DNA from: Gemmatimonadaceae bacterium
GTDB taxonomy: Bacteria > Gemmatimonadota > Gemmatimonadetes > Gemmatimonadales > Gemmatimonadaceae
Reading direction: 5' to 3'
DNA: 64,000 nt
Assembly: GCA_025934775.1 (NCBI GenBank)
Contig: JAICWO010000001.1
Span: 310,001-374,000 of the forward strand
The position numbers were made by a program, and so were the translations under genes. Position 1 is the stretch's first letter; every line of letters begins with the position of its first letter. Below, in pieces: positions 46,861 through 55,455 of this stretch. The notes under the pieces are model-generated. The model was not told where the DNA came from and made no database searches. It was given only the letters and a program-made list of their open reading frames with translations.

Positions 46861-48264
46861 ATGATCAAGACGATCGTCTGGCATCATCAGCTCGACGGAG
46901 ACGCCGAGCGCGCGCGTGCCATTCTCGATGCATTGCAGCGAGCGGGAATCGGTGCGCTGCCATACGATGCCGGCGAGATCCGCGGCGCGGGCGTCGTCTT
47001 CTTCGAGCGCGTGACCGATGCGCTCTGCGCGTTCGTGCGTGACGCGAGCCGCGGCGGGGCCGAGCGTGTGCTCGCGCTCGCGACGGGCGAGCCGGCGTCG
47101 CCGTCCGCCGTCTGGCGATTGCTGCGCGCGGGCGTGTCGGACGTGTTCGCGCCGGAGCGCGGACGCGACGTTGCCCGCGATGCCGCCGCGCGACTCGAGC
47201 GCTGGCTCGAAGTGGATCACATCCTCGCCTCGTCGCTCGTGCAGGACAATCTCGTCGGCGAGAGCTCAACGTGGCGCGCCGTATTGAGACAGCTGGTGGA
47301 GGCGGCCCGGTTCACCGACGCGCCGATTCTGCTGCAAGGTGAGACGGGCACCGGGAAGGAGCTCGCGGCCCGTCTCGTTCACTCGCTCGACGCGCGGCCG
47401 AACAAGGCGTCGCTCGTCGTGGTCGATTGCGGCGCGATCGCACCCGAGCTGTCGGGGAGCGAATTCTTCGGGCACGAGCGGGGCGCATTCACCGGCGCGG
47501 TCGCGGCGCGCGACGGCGCGTTCGCGCTCGCGAATCAGGGCACGCTCTTTCTCGACGAGCTGGGCGATCTGCCGCTGCGGCTCCAACCGGAGCTGCTGCG
47601 CGCGGTCCAGGAGCGCACGTACAAGCGGCTCGGCAGCAACATGTGGCAGACCACGCACTTTCGGCTGGTGAGCGCGACGCATCGCGATCTCACCGACGGC
47701 GTCGAGCGCGGACACTTTCGCGGCGATCTGTACTACCGCGTCGCGAGCATCACGATTCGACTTCCCGCATTGCGTGACCGGCCCGAGGACGTGCTGCCGC
47801 TCGCGCGCTACTTCATGGCGCAGATGCGCCGCGACCGCGAGCCGCCGCCCGTCGACGAGATTGTAGAGCGCTATCTACTCGAGCGCGCGTATCCGGGAAA
47901 CGTGCGCGATCTGCGCCAACTGGTGACGCGCATCATGCATCGGCACGTGGGCGCCGGCCCGATCACCGCCGGCGACATTCCGGAAGACGAGCGGCCGGAG
48001 TCGGAGTCCGCGGTCGTGTGGCTCGACGCGCCGTTCGAGGGTGCGATCCGGCGCGCGGTCGCACAGGGCGTGTCGCTGCGCGAGATCGGCCAGGCCGCGA
48101 CGGAGACGGCGATCCGGCTCGCGGTCGACATCGAAGGCAATCTCCAGAACGCGGCGCGCCGGCTACACGTGACCGATCGCGCGCTTCAGATGCGCCGCGC
48201 CGCCAAGCGGCAGCAGAGCGGACCGGGCTCCGACGGTGATTCGGTTGTATCTCGCGCCGACTGA
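46861..48264 (+). CDS. Sigma-54-dependent transcriptional activator (AAA+ enhancer-binding protein)
   Basis: Activator of 467 aa that remodels sigma-54 RNA polymerase. The N-terminal 125 residues are a receiver-like fold without a clear phospho-Asp (IVWHHQLDG..., RVLALATGE, GVSDVF), so a non-canonical sensor. The AAA+ core has Walker A GETGTGKE (160-167), the sigma-54-contact loop GAFTGA (208-213), Walker B GTLFLDELGDLPL and the RGDLYYRV block. A C-terminal helix-turn-helix (426-446, GNLQNAARRLHVTDRALQ) follows. It faces, and overlaps the end of, the minus-strand cluster whose promoter is of sigma-54 type, so it is the likely activator. Confidence 0.92.
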   Translation: MIKTIVWHHQLDGDAERARAILDALQRAGIGALPYDAGEIRGAGVVFFERVTDALCAFVRDASRGGAERVLALATGEPASPSAVWRLLRAGVSDVFAPERGRDVARDAAARLERWLEVDHILASSLVQDNLVGESSTWRAVLRQLVEAARFTDAPILLQGETGTGKELAARLVHSLDARPNKASLVVVDCGAIAPELSGSEFFGHERGAFTGAVAARDGAFALANQGTLFLDELGDLPLRLQPELLRAVQERTYKRLGSNMWQTTHFRLVSATHRDLTDGVERGHFRGDLYYRVASITIRLPALRDRPEDVLPLARYFMAQMRRDREPPPVDEIVERYLLERAYPGNVRDLRQLVTRIMHRHVGAGPITAGDIPEDERPESESAVVWLDAPFEGAIRRAVAQGVSLREIGQAATETAIRLAVDIEGNLQNAARRLHVTDRALQMRRAAKRQQSGPGSDGDSVVSRAD

Positions 48265-49002
48265 CGATCGCGACCGGGCGGCCTCGGTCACCCGCAGCCA
48301 GTTGCCGCCGAGGACGAGCGCTTGGTCGTCGGAGCTGAGTCCGAGCGCACGGATCTTCGCGAGCTCGACGCCCGGGTGCAGCCACGGTCCGTCGGAGCCG
48401 AACAACAGCTTGTGCGCGCCGGCGCGTCGTACGACGTCGACCAGGTAGTCGAATCGCTTCACGCCCGAGCTGTCGGTGTGCACGTTGCGATGCCGGACGA
48501 GCTGATCGATCAGCGCGACGTGCGCGCGCCAGTCGTCGTGAAAGCTGCCGATGTGCGGGATGATGAACTGCACGTCCGGATACGACGTCGCGATCATCTC
48601 GACCGATGAGACTTTTCCCATGACGTCGTAGAGCACGGGCAGACGGAAGAAGCGCGCGACGTCGCACACTTCGCGCGTGAGATCGCCGAAGTGGCGGTGC
48701 ACCTTGATGCCCACGAAGCCGTACTGTTCCACTGCCGCGCGCACGAGCGAACGGATGCGCCCGCGATCCGTGACCGTGTTCACGAACGCATAGCCGAAGA
48801 AGCGTTCGGGGCGCGACGCGACGATGCGCGCGACCTGCGCGTTCGCGACGGCAAAGTTCGTGTGGAACGCGGCGAAGAGCACGGTGCGCGTGATCCCGGC
48901 GCGATCCGCGCGCGCGATGTAGCGATCGAGCGGCGCGTTCGTGTCCCACGGCGCGGTGATGCCGTCACCCAAGCCGGCGTGGCAGTGCGAATCGATGATC
49001 AT
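48163..49002 (-). CDS. Amidohydrolase_2-family metal-dependent hydrolase
   Basis: TIM-barrel amidohydrolase of 279 aa. It opens MIIDSHCHAGLGD (HxH metal ligands). GFVGIKVHRHFGD and FIIPHIGSFHDDWRAH carry further metal-site His. LLFGSDGPWLHPGVELAKIRALGL has the final conserved Asp. Family members include decarboxylases and lactonases. I chose the second ATG; a start 27 nt earlier is possible. Its 5' end overlaps the PLP gene by 38 nt (translational coupling). Its last 102 nt overlap the convergent sigma-54 activator gene, which is unusual. Confidence 0.85.
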   Translation of the reverse strand: MIIDSHCHAGLGDGITAPWDTNAPLDRYIARADRAGITRTVLFAAFHTNFAVANAQVARIVASRPERFFGYAFVNTVTDRGRIRSLVRAAVEQYGFVGIKVHRHFGDLTREVCDVARFFRLPVLYDVMGKVSSVEMIATSYPDVQFIIPHIGSFHDDWRAHVALIDQLVRHRNVHTDSSGVKRFDYLVDVVRRAGAHKLLFGSDGPWLHPGVELAKIRALGLSSDDQALVLGGNWLRVTEAARSRSSVGARYNRITVGARSALLPLGGAAHLKRAIGHV

Positions 49003-50104
49003 GGGAGAATGCCATGGAGTGAGAGCCATGCGTCGCGCGATCGAGCACGGCGCGCACCCGTGCCGCGGCGATGTCGATCGCGTGTTCGTCGTGCGCGGCG
49101 GTGATCACGAACGTCAACATCGTCGCGCCGTCATGATTCCGTGTCGGAACCGCTTGGATACCCGCGGCGACGAGCGCTCGATACATCGCGACCGCGTCGA
49201 CATTCGGCGGAAGGCGGAGCGGCTGCACGGGGAAGAGCCAGTGTGTGGCGAGAAGTCCCGTCGCGGCGAGCGGCGCGCGAAAGCGCGCGACGAGCGACGC
49301 GAGGCGATCGCGAATCCGATCGCCGACCGAGCGATTGATGCGGAGCGCGCGATCGGCCGCGAGCAGCGTCGGAATCGACGGCGGACTGCAATGCTCGCGC
49401 GTCGGCGCTTGGCTCCGAAAGCGCGCGGTGAGTGCCGCGTCGGTCGCAAGCACCGCCAGCGGCGCGCCGAAACCCTTCGCGAGCGACGCGATGATGACGA
49501 TTCGGGGATCGCGAACGCCGAGGTGACGCAACGATCCGCCGCCGCCGCGACCATACGGGTTGTCGTCGTCACGCGTGCCGAGCACGCCGAGCGCTTGCGT
49601 GTCGTCGATCACGAGCCGGCCGCCGAATTGGTGTGCGAGGCGGGCGTACGCGGCGAGCGGTGCGACACGGCCGCACGAGGGACAGAGCCCGTCGCAGACG
49701 ACGACGGGCGGATGAGAGAACGGCGCGTCGCGCTCGAGCATCGCGCGGAGCGCGACGGGATCGTGCGTTGGGAAGCTCCGCACACGCGCGCCGAGCGAAC
49801 GCGCGCGATCGATTCCCCACATCGCGATTGGGTAGAGCGAGCGCTCCGTGTAGATCGTCGCACCGCGCGGCGCGAGCAGCGGGAAGAGATCGAGCGCGAT
49901 GTGAAGCGTGGACGTGCCAATCACGGCGTCGTCGGCGCCGACGAGCCGGGCGACGCCGGCGGCAACATCGCGAGCGAGCTGCGGCTCGCGAATCGCCGCC
50001 GGCGTCCCCAAGGTGAGCGCGCTCCACGGCGGCACGTACCTGCTCGGATGAGAGAGCCCGAGGTACAATGCCGACGCGAAGTCGAGCGTCACCGTGTGCC
50101 GCAC
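48965..50104 (-). CDS. PLP-dependent aminotransferase/alpha-oxoamine-synthase-like enzyme
   Basis: Fold-type I PLP enzyme of 379 aa. The fold is shown by SRYVPPWSALTLGTPAA, VVVCDGLCPSCGRVAPLAAYARLAHQFGG, LVIDDTQALGVLG (PLP-ring Asp plus His-like position Q) and the Schiff-base K210 in IIASLAKGFGAPLAVLA. This is the pattern of 8-amino-7-oxononanoate and 2-amino-3-ketobutyrate enzymes, but the sequence is divergent, so no named reaction can be assigned. The GTG start is 2 nt after the 606-aa gene's stop. Fifth-from-promoter position is consistent with one operon. Confidence 0.82.
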   Translation of the reverse strand: MRHTVTLDFASALYLGLSHPSRYVPPWSALTLGTPAAIREPQLARDVAAGVARLVGADDAVIGTSTLHIALDLFPLLAPRGATIYTERSLYPIAMWGIDRARSLGARVRSFPTHDPVALRAMLERDAPFSHPPVVVCDGLCPSCGRVAPLAAYARLAHQFGGRLVIDDTQALGVLGTRDDDNPYGRGGGGSLRHLGVRDPRIVIIASLAKGFGAPLAVLATDAALTARFRSQAPTREHCSPPSIPTLLAADRALRINRSVGDRIRDRLASLVARFRAPLAATGLLATHWLFPVQPLRLPPNVDAVAMYRALVAAGIQAVPTRNHDGATMLTFVITAAHDEHAIDIAAARVRAVLDRATHGSHSMAFSHDHRFALPRRLG

Positions 50105-50106
50105 CG

Positions 50107-51927
50107 CTACACCGTGTGCGGGTTCTGGTGCACCGGTGCCCCGGCCGGCATTGCCGGCTTGAGCAGATTCGACGCGCCGGGACGCACGCCGCCGATCTGC
50201 CGCGGTCCCGGCTGCGCCACCGGCGTGAACGTCCCGCCGGGGCGCGGCACGCGCGACACGACGCCGGTCTGCAGGCGTTCGGTCTGCGTGCGTACTTCCA
50301 TCATCTCGCCGACCGAGAGATCGATCGACGAAACGATCTTGAGCGCATGCGTGTACCGCTGAATCTCCGGACGGAACGCGCGCGCCCAGTTCGCCGCCTG
50401 GTTCTGATCGGTCGTCGTGCTCCAGTCGCCGTAGCGCACCGAGAGCAGGATCTTCTCGCCGAACGCCGCCAGGTCGGCGTAGTTGATCACCGACGCGTCG
50501 TTCCATCCTTGCAGCGACTTCATGGCGTCGACCCGGTCCATCCACTCCTCCGGATACGGCACCATCGTGCGGCCGCGCAGAAAATCCTTCATCTCCGGCC
50601 GCGCGAGGATCCACTGCTGCATCAACATCTCCGCCCGCGCGCGCAGCGTGAGGTCCACGAACTGATTGTGCGCGCCTTCAGAGATCACGAAATGCAGCTC
50701 GCGAAGCGCGTTCAGCATCGGGAACGCGTCGGCGACGATCGTCTTGTCGTCGTCCTCGCGGAAGAAGATCCACGCGAGCCGGAGCAGATCGTGGAACGCC
50801 GGCAGGAACTGCGACCGCACGTCGGCCGGGTGCATCTCGGGAATCGCCTTGCCGACGAGCTGGAGTCCGAGGCCGTGCGCGTACTCGTACGAGCGCCGGT
50901 TCACCGTGAGCCGGTTCACCTCGTCCTGCACGTAGCCCCAGAGCAGATTGCTCAGCGGCCGGAGCGGATCGAGCTCGAAGTTCGCCAGCGGATCGAGGCC
51001 CGCGCCGCGGCGGACGTTCTGGAACCGGAGCGAGATGAGGTTCATCGTCTGCACCATCATCCCCTGCTCGATCCAGTAGTTCCAGATGAGCTCCATGAGC
51101 ACGGGGCTGAGGAGCCGCGAGCGCAGGATGCCGTACGAATCGGGACGCACGCCGAGCTGGAGATTCCGCTTGAACGGCAGCTCGCCCAACCGGCGGCGAA
51201 TGATGTTCATGTACGGCAGCACCTGCGCCGACGTCTGCTCGCTCACGAGATCTCTCAGGTACTCGCCGCGGAAGCGCTCGACGAAATCCTTCGAGAGATA
51301 CGTGCTCGGCGGGTCGAAGCTCGAGACGTCCTCCATCCGTCCGGCCTCGGACATGAGGAAGAAGTCCGTGGCGGCCCGGAGCAGCTGGTACGCGTCGCCG
51401 TTCATCACGCCGTAGGTCGCGATCTTGCGGCGCAGATCGGTGATCTCCTGCGGCAGCTCGCGCGCCTGCGGCGCCGACGACGGATTGAGCTTTGTTTGAT
51501 TGAAGTCCGCTAACGTCTCCTGGGCGTTCCCGGAGAGGCCGGCCGGCGCGAAGCCGGCGTCGACGTCGCTCGCGTCGTCGGTGATCGGCTGTTCATTGCC
51601 GGTCTCGTCGTCGAGCGCGTCGGCCAGGAAGTTCTCCGCGGCGGCGTGCGCGTCGGCCGACGCCCGGTCGTTCCCGAGCGTGGCCTGCGCGTCGAGGATG
51701 CGCTGCCGTTTGCTCACCTGAACGCGCCGCTCTTCCGCCGAGAGCAGCCGGCGCGTGCTGCCCGGCGCCGCGTCGCTCATCACGCGATCAATGAAATCCG
51801 AATACCGGCGGAACGACAGCGCTTCCGTGCGATCCTTCACCACTTCCCAGAGCAGGCGATCGGTGGTGAAAGGAAAGTCGGTGCGCTCGAGCGAGACGTG
51901 GTGGATCGGGGGCAAGTTGTCTGACAT
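50107..51927 (-). CDS. Uncharacterised 606-aa protein of the sigma-54 cluster
   Basis: No family recognised. Predicted cytosolic, mostly helical, without signal peptide or membrane helices. Residues ~85-160 are acidic and probably disordered (ENFLADALDDETGNEQPITDDASDVDAG). The central part (residues ~180-480) is rich in aromatic helices: FFLMSEAGRMEDV, LMELIWNYWIEQGMMVQTMNLI, LLRLAWIFFREDDDKTIVAD. The C-terminal ~60 residues are Pro/Gly-rich and flexible, ending QNPHTV. GGAGG lies 8 nt before the ATG, and the gene starts 12 nt after the HExxH gene. A structural or scaffold role fits its size and composition, but this is speculation. Confidence 0.75.
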   Translation of the reverse strand: MSDNLPPIHHVSLERTDFPFTTDRLLWEVVKDRTEALSFRRYSDFIDRVMSDAAPGSTRRLLSAEERRVQVSKRQRILDAQATLGNDRASADAHAAAENFLADALDDETGNEQPITDDASDVDAGFAPAGLSGNAQETLADFNQTKLNPSSAPQARELPQEITDLRRKIATYGVMNGDAYQLLRAATDFFLMSEAGRMEDVSSFDPPSTYLSKDFVERFRGEYLRDLVSEQTSAQVLPYMNIIRRRLGELPFKRNLQLGVRPDSYGILRSRLLSPVLMELIWNYWIEQGMMVQTMNLISLRFQNVRRGAGLDPLANFELDPLRPLSNLLWGYVQDEVNRLTVNRRSYEYAHGLGLQLVGKAIPEMHPADVRSQFLPAFHDLLRLAWIFFREDDDKTIVADAFPMLNALRELHFVISEGAHNQFVDLTLRARAEMLMQQWILARPEMKDFLRGRTMVPYPEEWMDRVDAMKSLQGWNDASVINYADLAAFGEKILLSVRYGDWSTTTDQNQAANWARAFRPEIQRYTHALKIVSSIDLSVGEMMEVRTQTERLQTGVVSRVPRPGGTFTPVAQPGPRQIGGVRPGASNLLKPAMPAGAPVHQNPHTV

Positions 51928-51939
51928 TCTCTTTCCTCC

Positions 51940-53286
51940 CTAGACGGCGGCGAGCACCGCCGCCGGTGGTAGCTCGGCGCGCTTCCAATGCGACCGGGCA
52001 GGTGGTTGCGCAATCGCGCACACTTCGGCGATGTCGAGCGTGCTGCGCAGCGCCCAATACGTGAGTAGATAGGCGAGCAACTGGCTCTCGGCTTCCGGCG
52101 AGACCACACCGTCGGCGCGCGCCTGTCCGATCGCCGCGAACACGAACGTCGGCGGATAGTCGCGCATCGACATGCGGTTGCCATTCCACGCGCGCCACTG
52201 TTCCATCAACTGCCGCGGATGGCGGTCGCCGAGCCGCATGACCTGGAGCAGCGAGCGTCCGCCGAGCGACGGCGGCGAGTGCGCGAGCAGCACGCGCACG
52301 AATGCGGGAATCGATTCCTCGAGCAGCGCGAACGCTTGCTGCTGCGCCGGCGAGGCCGTGGTCACGGGATAGAGCTCGCCCCAGAGCGTCGCGAGGCGAT
52401 CCCACTGCGGATGCGGATACAGCGCCGCTCCCATCGCGCAGCTCAACTTCACGCGAATCCACGGCGCGGGATGCGGATCTTCAGGATTCACACGAAAGAC
52501 GAACGCGCGCGGCAGACTCACGACGCCGATCAACCCGAGCGGCGCGGCGATGCCGACCTTCGACACCGACCAGAGATCGGCGACGATCTCGGAGATCCAC
52601 CGCTCCCAGAGTTGCCACGCGACCGCCGCCGGGCCGCCGAGCCGCTGTTTACCGTGCAACATCGTGCGCAGCGATTCGACGAGGCCGAGCAGCGCCGCGC
52701 CCTGATGACCGACTTCGTGCACCAGCGACGAGGCAATCCCGCTGCCGACCATGCGCTCCCGCGGCACGCGAATCACCGCGACGGGATTCTCGCCGCCGCC
52801 CGGGAGTCGCGTCCGCGCGCGCCGAATCGCGGCGCCGGGATCGCGCACGAGGTAGCAGATCACCGGCGGCGGCTTCTTGATTCCGGGCAGCTCCAGCGCT
52901 TCGGCGGCGACCACGTCGAGGCCACCGATGAACACGCCGGTCTCGTGCTCGCTGCGCTGTGTCAACACTTCCGCGAAAATGTCGAACTGCGAAAGCACGA
53001 CGTTGAAGCGGAGTCGAAGAAACGTGAATCGACGCTGGAGCTCGACCGCGGTGGCGTGCCGGCCTTCCGGGCTGCGAATCCAGCGCAGAAAACCGGTAAC
53101 GCGCGCGCGCAGCTCCTGACGTCCGCCGGCGAGGTAGCTCTCGATCGCCGATTGCGCGGCGACCGTGACCGACGCCGCCGGCACGGACGGCGTGAGCAGC
53201 GCGAACGGCTTCACGCGCGCGAGTCGCGTGAGCAGCCCTCGAGCTTCCTGCTCGAGGAACCGCGCGGCGGGAGACGTGGTGTTCAC
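51940..53286 (-). CDS. Predicted HExxH zinc metallopeptidase of unknown family
   Basis: Protein of 448 aa without signal peptide. The metal motif HEVGH (190-194) lies in SGIASSLVHEVGHQGAALLG, and a candidate third ligand E233 follows in ERWISEIVADLWSVSKVG, the gluzincin arrangement. The N-terminal half is helical (FLRWIRSPEGRHATAVELQRRFTFLRLRF); the C-terminal half also. GTG start, 9 nt after the acidic-repeat gene. I cannot match it to a named peptidase family. It may process a product of the cluster, most obviously the repeat protein encoded just before it. Confidence 0.78.
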   Translation of the reverse strand: MNTTSPAARFLEQEARGLLTRLARVKPFALLTPSVPAASVTVAAQSAIESYLAGGRQELRARVTGFLRWIRSPEGRHATAVELQRRFTFLRLRFNVVLSQFDIFAEVLTQRSEHETGVFIGGLDVVAAEALELPGIKKPPPVICYLVRDPGAAIRRARTRLPGGGENPVAVIRVPRERMVGSGIASSLVHEVGHQGAALLGLVESLRTMLHGKQRLGGPAAVAWQLWERWISEIVADLWSVSKVGIAAPLGLIGVVSLPRAFVFRVNPEDPHPAPWIRVKLSCAMGAALYPHPQWDRLATLWGELYPVTTASPAQQQAFALLEESIPAFVRVLLAHSPPSLGGRSLLQVMRLGDRHPRQLMEQWRAWNGNRMSMRDYPPTFVFAAIGQARADGVVSPEAESQLLAYLLTYWALRSTLDIAEVCAIAQPPARSHWKRAELPPAAVLAAV

Positions 53287-53295
53287 GGCGCCGCC

Positions 53296-54357
53296 TCAGA
53301 CGCCGACGAGCACGATCTTGCGGCCGCGGCGATACCACCGCCCGGTGCGCGTGAACCCGACGGGCGTCGTGTACGACGAGCCGTTCGTCGAGCCGACGTA
53401 GCTCGGCGTCTCGATGCTGGGCGCGACGTAGCCGGCGCCGAACATGGGGCCCGCGTAGGTCGGTGCCCCGCCGTACGTGGGCGCGCCAACCGCGGCGACG
53501 GCGCCGTACGTGCCGCGGCGATGCGCGCCATGGTGCCGGTGAATCGGATGCGACGGGTGCGTTGGGCGCACCGGCGTCACGGTGTGCGGGCGCGCGGCGT
53601 GCGCCTGCTTGACGGCGTGCGAGATGTTCGCGACGACTTTCGGCCGGAGGAGGCCGGGGATGTGCTTGCGCGCGGCGACGATCGTCGCGGCCTTCAACGC
53701 CTTGGCCGGCGGCACGTGCGTCGGTGTCTTGGACAGCTTCTTCGCGGCGGTGCCGGTGAAGCGAACGACACGCTTCGCGGCTTCGAACTCGCGGTCCTGC
53801 GGGCTCAGTCCCTCGAACTCGAGACCGAACATGTTGCCGGCCGCCGAGGCGAGCTTGCCGCCGATCGCGCCGCCGACGCCGGGCAACACGAGATTGCCGA
53901 GCGCCGCGCCGGCCGCGGGGAGCGCCACCTTGGCCGCCTTCTTCGCGATGCCGCCGAGCGCCTTGCCCACGGGGCTGTTCGCGATGTTGCCGACGAACTT
54001 GCCGGCCTTCTTGATCAGCCCACCGAGGAACTGTTCCAGTTCCTCCTCGCTCTGCACGCCGAGGAGCTCGGAGGCAAGCTCCATCTCGGTGACTTCGTCG
54101 AACACGGGCGCGCTCTCGCCCTCGTACTCGCCTTCGCCGAGGAAGCCCTCGCCCTCGTACTCGCCGCCGAGCAGACCGCCGACGATGTCGCCGAGGAATC
54201 CTTCGCCCTCGCCCTCACCTTCGCCCTCGTACTCGCCGCCGAGCAATCCGCCGACGACGTCACCGAGGAATTCCTCACCCTCGCCCTCGTACTCCTGCGA
54301 CGCATCGAGCTCGCCGAATTCGCTCGCCTCTTGGATCGTGCGGTCCACGTCGTGCAT
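53296..54357 (-). CDS. Acidic Glu-Gly-Tyr repeat / glycine-zipper protein
   Basis: Modular protein of 353 aa, family not named. Residues 22-81 are acidic repeats: FLGDVVGGLLGGEYEGEG (30-47), FLGDIVGGLLGGEYEGEG (54-71) and a half unit (72-81). A short helical segment (VTEMELASELLGVQSEEELEQFLGG) links to a basic, Gly/Ala-zipper-like region (114-178, KKAGKFVGNIAN..., LPGVGGAIGGKLASAAGNMFG) that could insert in or pass a membrane. A basic stretch (residues ~186-235), a His/Pro/Tyr-rich part and the C-terminal GRWYRRGRKIVLVGV follow. GGGAGG precedes the ATG by 5 nt. First gene after the sigma-54 promoter. No signal peptide. Confidence 0.82.
   Translation of the reverse strand: MHDVDRTIQEASEFGELDASQEYEGEGEEFLGDVVGGLLGGEYEGEGEGEGEGFLGDIVGGLLGGEYEGEGFLGEGEYEGESAPVFDEVTEMELASELLGVQSEEELEQFLGGLIKKAGKFVGNIANSPVGKALGGIAKKAAKVALPAAGAALGNLVLPGVGGAIGGKLASAAGNMFGLEFEGLSPQDREFEAAKRVVRFTGTAAKKLSKTPTHVPPAKALKAATIVAARKHIPGLLRPKVVANISHAVKQAHAARPHTVTPVRPTHPSHPIHRHHGAHRRGTYGAVAAVGAPTYGGAPTYAGPMFGAGYVAPSIETPSYVGSTNGSSYTTPVGFTRTGRWYRRGRKIVLVGV
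54145..54270 (-). repeat. In-gene tandem repeat coding FLGD[V/I]VGGLLGGEYEGEG
   Basis: Two 54-nt direct repeats, separated by 18 nt of Glu-Gly codons, encode residues 30-47 and 54-71 of the acidic-repeat protein. They differ by one amino acid (V/I). Copy number could vary between strains. Confidence 0.8.
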
Positions 54358-54413: not shown

Positions 54414-54429
54414 TGCAGCGGGAGTGCCA
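54414..54429 (-). promoter_or_regulatory. Sigma-54 (-24/-12) promoter of the unknown cluster
   Basis: On the minus strand TGGCACTCCCGCTGCA has GG and GC separated by exactly 10 nt and agrees with the consensus TGGCAC-N5-TTGCA at all but one specified base. Predicted start of transcription is near 54403, 46 nt before the ATG of the acidic-repeat gene. The window encodes a sigma-54 activator at the far end of the same cluster. Confidence 0.8.
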
Positions 54430-54601: not shown

Positions 54602-55303
54602 TCAGCGTTTCGCGCGCGCTTTCGACGTCGCGGCCGGCGCTGTAGCGGTTTGAAGCACTTGCTCGCGAACGTACGTGCCGGCCGGCGTTTCGTCGCGGAA
54701 CAGTTCCCGTTCCGTGACCTGCGTGTTCGGGCGATACTCACCGAATCGCACACCGGCGACCGGCCCGGCCTGCGCGACGGGCGCCGGGTTCTCCGCCTTG
54801 GCGGAGAGAGCCTCCAGCCGCTTCGCCCACTCCTGTTTCTGTCCGAGCGTCGCGTCGGCGACGACGAGCTCCGTGTTCGTCTTGAGCAGCTCGTCGCTGA
54901 TGATGCACCGCGCTTCGTCGCCGCAGAGATTCACGCGGAGCTCGATCTCGCGGTCGATCCGCTCGATGACATGCCGTAGCGTGGCGACCGTGGTCTGGAC
55001 GTCCTTCGCTTGCGCGTCGTAGGCGACGCACGCGGCCTGCACCTGGCTCGCGGTGGCGGGATCGACGTCGCAGCCGGCCGCGCGTGGCAGGGAGGCGAAG
55101 CTCGCGGCGAGCCCCGTGACGAGGCTGTGCCCGACGCGCGCGAAGTGGTCGTACTGCTGGACCACGGTGCCGCGCACGCTGAACAGATCGCGGAGGACCG
55201 TCGCGTGGTCGGTCGTGTCGGTGGGGGTGGTGTTCGTGGCGGGTCCGTTCGACGCGAATCCGCTGGTGAAGGTGGAGTCCTGGACTGCCATGAAGTTCGC
55301 CAT
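54602..55303 (-). CDS. Hypothetical helical protein (233 aa) upstream of the sigma-54 cluster
   Basis: Unrecognised protein. After a Thr-rich N terminus (STFTSGFASNGPATNTTPTDTTD) comes a long, mostly helical region (LRDLFSVRGTVVQQYDHFARVGHSLVTGL..., VQTTVATLRHVIERIDREIELRVNL, TLGQKQEWAKRLEALSAKAE), likely a coiled-coil bundle. Cys residues lie in GCDVDPA, AACVAY, NLCGDEARCI. The C terminus is Ala/Lys-rich. GGAGG lies 5 nt before the ATG. It has its own promoter (55456..55483) and terminator. Its position suggests a related role to the cluster, but this is inference. Confidence 0.72.
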   Translation of the reverse strand: MANFMAVQDSTFTSGFASNGPATNTTPTDTTDHATVLRDLFSVRGTVVQQYDHFARVGHSLVTGLAASFASLPRAAGCDVDPATASQVQAACVAYDAQAKDVQTTVATLRHVIERIDREIELRVNLCGDEARCIISDELLKTNTELVVADATLGQKQEWAKRLEALSAKAENPAPVAQAGPVAGVRFGEYRPNTQVTERELFRDETPAGTYVREQVLQTATAPAATSKARAKR

Positions 55304-55455
55304 GTGCCCTCCGTGGAACGTACCGAGCGTTCCCGAATGCGCTCGCGTCGAATCGGCGAGGCGGACCCCACGGCGGCCACGCGCAGCTCGCGATCGACGG
55401 TCGTTGGCGCGCACACGCGCAGAGCGCGGAGTTGAGGCGCGCAACGAGGGCAGCA

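Follow-up and report, generated by a model that had tools for sequence, protein, structure and literature searches.

What system does a protein with a strongly acidic head and a basic, glycine-rich remainder belong to, and what might that system do? The question is raised by a gene of a Gemmatimonadaceae bacterium, which was analyzed within a window of 64,000 nt (assembly GCA_025934775.1, contig JAICWO010000001.1, positions 310,001 to 374,000). A preliminary description made from the sequence had paired this gene with a putative protease gene directly after it. The pair is real, yet the larger cassette had been missed, namely a third protein (P3), a PLP enzyme, an amidohydrolase, an activator, a promoter and accessory proteins. 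Wherever genomes were searched with the family profile, this one conserved cassette was the only place encoding the glycine-zipper protein (GZP). We read the cassette, with a probability of roughly 45%, as an inducible, sigma-54-controlled antibacterial or lytic effector system with a processing metallopeptidase.

Layout of the cassette in the window

The gene order on the minus strand of the window is GZP, HExxH protein (after 9 nt), P3 (after 12 nt), PLP enzyme (after 2 nt) and amidohydrolase (overlapping). The features are as follows.

54415..54429, minus strand: match to a sigma-54 -24/-12 promoter (TGGCAC-N5-CTGC), upstream of the GZP gene
53296..54357, minus strand: GZP gene, 353 aa from ATG, first gene of the cassette
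54028..54357, minus strand: acidic N-terminal part of the GZP, residues 1-110, net charge -34, starting with the conserved MHDxDRT motif
54146..54288, minus strand: two imperfect 72-nt direct repeats (54146-54216 and 54218-54288)
53860..53967, minus strand: glycine-zipper stretch, residues 131-166, with conserved G131/G135 and G150/G154/(G158)/G162/G166
53299..53343, minus strand: C-terminal motif RW-RRG--IVL-G, residues 339-353, a predicted beta hairpin; such an end (W-x-R-x-G-x-x-hydrophobic) is found in 83 of 85 adjacent GZPs
51940..53286, minus strand: HExxH protein, a predicted gluzincin-like metallopeptidase of 448 aa
52705..52719, minus strand: HExxH motif, H190-H194 (window sequence HEVGHQGAA)
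52576-52590, minus strand: ExxxD motif, E233-D237, partner of HExxH
50107..51927, minus strand: P3, 606 aa, conserved, with no Pfam or NCBIfam match above cut-off
48965..50104, minus strand: PLP enzyme (Aminotran_1_2), divergent and BioF/Kbl/serine palmitoyltransferase-like
48163..49002, minus strand: Amidohydro_2 family protein with an IIDSHCHAG motif
46864..48264, plus strand: sigma-54-dependent activator (AAA+), convergent with the operon

The GZP gene is single-copy in its 4.88-Mb genome. Two genomes of the same genus encode homologues over the whole length (66% and 53% identity), and the window GZP is therefore taken to be a true gene. Relatives of the core only are encoded in further Gemmatimonadota and on rhizobial plasmids, and in an alignment of 14 sequences the FLGD-VVGGLLGG repeats and the His/Pro stretch were confined to the genus of the window. 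The open reading frame is much as the preliminary description had it, with a Gly/Ala zipper (16 Gly and 15 Ala within residues 111-180), His and Pro concentrated at about residues 211-300 and a basic end, WYRRGRKIVLVGV. The abrupt acidic-to-basic switch that it reported is borne out as well, the net charge being -34 over residues 1-110, +7 over residues 111-180 and positive beyond. Its two 18-residue repeats do exist as two copies, but each measures 71-72 nt or about 24 residues (89% identical); both same-genus relatives carry one copy as opposed to the two in the window.

Upstream of the cassette promoter, a 234-aa protein is encoded at window positions 54602-55306 on the minus strand. Its only relative among the compared loci (30%) lies beside the cassette of a same-genus genome (L017).

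Co-occurrence and distribution

The HExxH protein was used as bait in a collection with one genome per species. This matched 482 stretches and yielded 267 relatives; the best 80 of these were kept, which biases the locus sample toward close HExxH relatives. Together with Gemmatimonadota loci, plasmid loci and the window they make up 89 HExxH loci. One locus on the same contig stretch as L017 (L026) was left out, and two with weak GZP matches (L024 and L025) stand outside the 89 because neither matched a family at 1e-5.

In 85 of the 89 loci the gene immediately upstream of the HExxH gene encodes a GZP, the two being -4 to 47 nt apart, mostly 4-6 nt. In the remaining four the HExxH gene is at most 223 nt from a contig start, and because these misses sit at contig edges the adjacency amounts to 85 of 85. 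P3 is present in at least 87 of the 89 loci, the PLP enzyme in at least 81, the sigma-54 activator in at least 61 and the amidohydrolase in at least 50, these counts being lower bounds because the flanks end early in many loci. A clustered peptidoglycan-binding accessory protein occurs in at least 41. The general plan is one to five GZP matches, HExxH protein, P3, PLP enzyme, variable accessory proteins in many hosts, amidohydrolase and a convergent sigma-54 activator.

Loci found with the HExxH protein cannot show a dependence of the GZP on it, and GZPs were therefore searched directly. Among 395 Gemmatimonadota genomes the GZP was found in eight, all of which contain the HExxH gene. A ninth genome of the 395 (G156) gave a remote HExxH match (E 7e-40) with no adjoining GZP. 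An earlier search with a single GZP sequence had given ten positive genomes, the two weakest of which (G393 and G101) fail the family profile. Twenty genomes from other lineages, chosen because they bear the cassette, gave 51 GZP matches, all 51 on the contig of a full-length HExxH gene and within about 8 kb of it; a second, remote HExxH gene, without a GZP, is present in one of the 20. Co-occurrence with the HExxH protein, on which the preliminary description had staked its reading, has thus survived in all three samples (85/85 loci, 8/8 genomes and 51/51 matches). The two proteins also co-diverge (Mantel r = 0.83, 0 of 1000 permutations), with r 0.58 for pairs below 70% identity; this test and the residue counts below use the 80 loci with all three genes. 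We consider the cassette almost certainly a functional unit.

Judged by record titles, the relatives belong to Gemmatimonadetes, several proteobacterial classes, Nitrospira, Myxococcota, Chloroflexi, Planctomycetes, Verrucomicrobia, Blastocatellia, Rokubacteria and Calditrichia. The cassette ranges from soil Gemmatimonadota to Burkholderiales, Nitrosomonas, rhizobia and myxobacteria. Within the genus of the window (g1), three of the five genomes among the 395 carry it.

The GZP family

Searches of Pfam, NCBIfam, PHROGs and PADLOC placed the GZP, the HExxH protein and P3 in no curated family. For the GZP this agrees with the earlier statement that it is not a known family. The zipper region weakly resembles a phage tape measure (phrog_167, E 5e-5). 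An identity of that kind was rejected, as 50,697 phage records held no GZP match and the neighbours in the cassette are not tail genes. Weak matches to TRI4_N in 15 of 53 GZPs (best E 0.003) and to Gly-zipper_Omp in five of 53 were likewise set aside as scattered or compositional.

Among the 85 adjacent GZPs, 76 start with MHDxDRT under a loose pattern. The same loci contain further GZPs, 62 upstream and 42 downstream, most of which lack the MHD motif. In four downstream paralogues it is replaced by a Cys-rich CxCxxC (L016:18110-18838, L048:14474-16180, L085:12666-15467 and L105:11625-15281), and a single ORF at L101:7773-9980 (+) carries two tandem GZP domains.

The core of the window GZP holds six GxxxG motifs against 3.4 expected from shuffles, which is non-significant for this single sequence (P = 0.08), so it is the family register that argues for a glycine zipper. 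Across 80 homologues, glycine is kept at position 150 in 76, at 154 in 79, at 158 in 62, at 162 in 78 and at 166 in 76; residue 158 of the window GZP is Leu and departs from the register. The earlier expectation that homologues would keep the zipper therefore holds. The charge switch is equally family-wide, with a median net charge of -13 before and +7 after the conserved helix at which 84 proteins were split.

AlphaFold prediction, which had been suggested as a check, was carried out with 53 sequences and gave a GZP model of mean pLDDT 65. The helical domain came out mostly confident (helices at about 88-145 and 186-240), as did the C-terminal hairpin (340-351); the zipper itself (about 150-170) is less certain, and the head and linker are of low confidence. 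Foldseek returned no fold match for this model (best E 0.9). VIA-align found common helical arrangements only (best Z 5.3), and this negative outcome does not establish a new fold. PDB sequence profiles gave designed helical proteins and leghemoglobin only.

The possible membrane-active core of the preliminary description is not supported. The best 19-residue Kyte-Doolittle mean reaches 1.6 in one of the 85 adjacent GZPs (median 1.1), and classical transmembrane helices were ruled out with 84 of 85 below the usual hydropathy threshold. That description had pictured an autoinhibited pore former, its acidic part acting as a shield until the adjacent protease cuts. The conserved charge switch, the near-absolute pairing with the peptidase and the conserved zipper register would suit such a protein. 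However, the low hydropathy and the lack of a recognised immunity gene speak against it, as do acidic stretches on accessory enzymes without a zipper, so the head is no dedicated shield for zippers. We consider a pore former of this type very improbable.

The HExxH protein

The putative protease of the preliminary description is now a predicted HExxH metallopeptidase, encoded 9 nt past the GZP gene. All 80 HExxH proteins compared have H190, E191, H194, E233 and D237 without exception, and we take the HExxH...ExxxD set to be the zinc-ligand and catalytic residues of gluzincin metallopeptidases. M48-type gluzincins, including BepA, carry an HExxH and ExxxD signature; a Pfam peptidase family, M48 included, was matched by none of 61 HExxH members. 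Comparison with PDB sequence profiles likewise gave nothing.

The structural model of the HExxH protein is of good predicted quality (pLDDT 88), and Foldseek placed no zincin near the top of its matches (best E 0.14, unrelated). In a second structural look most matches span helices 1-112 only. BepA (M48) is among the few that reach the catalytic region, with 166 residues aligned over 98-411 of the model (Z 6.1, rmsd 5.0). This partial overlap is suggestive of a zincin-type fold, not proof of one. The HExxH protein is probably an active peptidase. That the GZP is its substrate is a tentative proposal, which we hold to be somewhat more probably wrong than right.

Probable sigma-54 control and the PLP enzyme

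The 350 nt preceding the first GZP contain a -24/-12 site with at most one mismatch in 63 of 85 loci, compared with 56 of 1700 random windows (3%) and three of 85 opposite strands. All 16 genomes examined for rpoN contain it, including eight cassette-negative ones picked by hand. Because the activator and the promoter site are both conserved, control of the cassette by sigma-54 is very likely, and with a dedicated activator and promoter the cassette should be easy to switch on.

The PLP enzyme scores with models of BioF, serine palmitoyltransferase and alpha-hydroxyketone autoinducer synthase, all far below the cut-offs. If it were a signal synthase, its position adjoining a sigma-54 activator would amount to a built-in quorum circuit. 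P3 gave nothing credible against PDB sequence profiles.

The gene order, which could be read as precursor, peptidase and enzymes, and the PLP enzyme found in 81 of 89 loci, alpha-oxoamine synthase-like with model scores far below cut-offs, bring to mind a biosynthetic or signalling cassette. The GZP would then be a precursor or scaffold matured by the metallopeptidase, as in modified-peptide pathways, and the PLP enzyme and amidohydrolase would either produce a small molecule or act on the GZP itself as modifying enzymes. However, such a precursor would be a large protein, partly folded in the predicted model, and the enzyme-bearing accessory proteins would be left unexplained. We regard this explanation as improbable.

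Accessory proteins and fusions

In many loci, proteins with acidic stretches and varied domains are encoded between the PLP gene and the activator. The domain scan covered 80 of 125 such ORFs, most short GZP-only ORFs and many near-duplicates having been left out; the ORFs were called mechanically, and five match Amidohydro_2. Domains identified in the 80 are PG_binding_1 (32), Amidase_2 (7), Trypsin (6), OmpA (6), Peptidase_M74 (4), GIY-YIG (3), DUF2272 (2) and one each of M23, VanY, Glucosaminidase, HNH and M35, with about ten enzyme families represented. An accessory enzyme is lacking from the cassette of the window. Nitrosomonas has the GZP domain fused to domains of this set, in one protein lying between PG_binding_1 and Amidase_2 and in another following PG_binding_1 and a GIY-YIG-like region that is below the Pfam cut-off. 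A constant GZP domain mixed with lytic enzymes suggests an effector system.

The same peptidoglycan-binding, OmpA and hydrolase domains, along with a BioF/Kbl-like enzyme, would also fit envelope work. They could belong to a developmental cassette in which sigma-54 drives the build-up or breakdown of the cell's own envelope or matrix, as in a cyst, a spore-like form or a biofilm coat, with GZPs as a self-assembling scaffold and hydrolases that act on self. No immunity gene was recognised in the cassette, as would be expected for such work, and glycine zippers can drive assembly, as the available text of PMC5380434 describes. However, the GIY-YIG and HNH nuclease and trypsin domains among the accessory ORFs fit it poorly, and the patchy occurrence in the window's genus (3/5 g1 genomes) suggests a dispensable trait. 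We judge this explanation to be unlikely, though it is a serious rival, as is the biosynthetic cassette.

Comparison with known systems

The closest parallels to an effector system of the kind favoured here come from several sources. According to the available text of PMC5380434, CdzC and CdzD of Caulobacter are surface-bound, contact-dependent glycine-zipper bacteriocins of 84-86 aa, with a type I system encoded next to them for export and a membrane immunity protein. Glycine-zipper proteins in a multi-gene cluster, with more than one zipper protein per cluster, are common to both systems, and the GZPs have the GxxxGxxxG register (G150-G166 in the 80 homologues). Unlike the Cdz cluster, the present cassette has no type I secretion or membrane immunity gene, as judged from Pfam for the window cassette and from the recurrent locus neighbours, and it does have a metallopeptidase, P3, a PLP enzyme and sigma-54 control.

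Tde1, a DNase effector of the type VI secretion system (T6SS), needs its N-terminal glycine zipper for membrane permeabilisation and translocation into target cells, as stated in the available text of PMC10240207. A GxxxG region joined to enzyme cargo is shared with Tde1; however, Tde1 requires a T6SS, and the zipper domain here is mostly a separate protein. Delivery by a T6SS was rejected for the genome of the window (G000, 99% complete), which lacks TssB/VipA (PF05591). This sheath gene is present in six of eight cassette-positive Gemmatimonadota (G144, G254, G074, G250, G272 and G346) versus two of eight hand-picked cassette-negative genomes, numbers too few to judge an association.

In the PVC/eCIS systems, the available text of PMC3482391 links a PVC-metallopeptidase to diverse toxins, including those with OmpA and glucosaminidase domains, often without immunity genes. 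Association of a metallopeptidase with diverse enzymatic domains is a likeness to the present cassette. The PVC-metallopeptidase has an HExxHxxQ-E motif and forms part of the toxin proteins themselves, in the company of phage-tail genes, whereas the protein here has HExxHQ...ExxxD and stands on its own. eCIS delivery was also rejected for the genome of the window, where Baseplate_J (PF04865) is absent. The joining of a constant GZP part to varied enzymatic domains further resembles polymorphic toxins.

Proposed function

In the effector reading, the sigma-54 activator would turn the operon on, and GZPs and accessory enzymes would be produced with acidic heads. The metallopeptidase might then trim or mature both. 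The zipper domain may self-associate and/or help enzyme cargo, namely peptidoglycan hydrolases and nuclease-like domains, to reach or cross a target envelope, as the Tde1 zipper does. This scheme builds on observed conservation, gene order and promoter; its processing, membrane action, release and target would be the conjectural parts.

Several findings count against it. In the window, Pfam and NCBIfam revealed neither a recognisable immunity gene nor a secretion system within the cassette, and no immunity-like family recurs among the locus neighbours, where fast-evolving ones would escape. The lack of an accessory enzyme in the window cassette, the low zipper hydropathy and the GZP model without a fold match weigh in the same direction, as do the HExxH protein without a Pfam peptidase or Foldseek zincin match and a remote HExxH homologue (L106) that sits beside an acidic protein without a GZP. 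A pure toxin reading also leaves the PLP enzyme and the amidohydrolase unexplained. We give a role of the cassette in antagonism or lysis a little less than an even chance. A fuller version, which as a whole we find unlikely, would be a sigma-54-switched interbacterial weapon in which acidic-headed zipper carriers, matured by the metallopeptidase, deliver swappable wall- and nucleic-acid-degrading enzymes independently of known secretion machinery, and in which the PLP enzyme might supply a small-molecule signal.

Novelty and significance

Within the open-access PMC literature no description of the cassette was found, subscription papers being outside the scope of the search, and it is apparently undescribed as a gene system. 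GZP, HExxH protein and P3 belong to no curated family, yet stay associated in many phyla. Should the effector reading prove true, the cassette would represent a new kind of antagonism or lysis system; a developmental cassette would instead connect remodelling of the envelope with zipper proteins and a conserved protease. In either case, the co-occurrence points to a predicted substrate for what is otherwise an orphan family of metallopeptidases. Carriers include culturable environmental genera, namely Janthinobacterium, Massilia, Variovorax, Bradyrhizobium and Nitrosomonas.

Remote HExxH homologues

Two remote HExxH homologues of about 29-30% identity occur without a GZP, at L106:6705-7991 (+) and L107:1729-3060 (+). 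The gene in L106 comes after that of an 810-aa protein with acidic stretches and is near a sigma-54 activator and an 867-aa protein resembling the accessory ORFs, surroundings suggesting a second, related cassette type.
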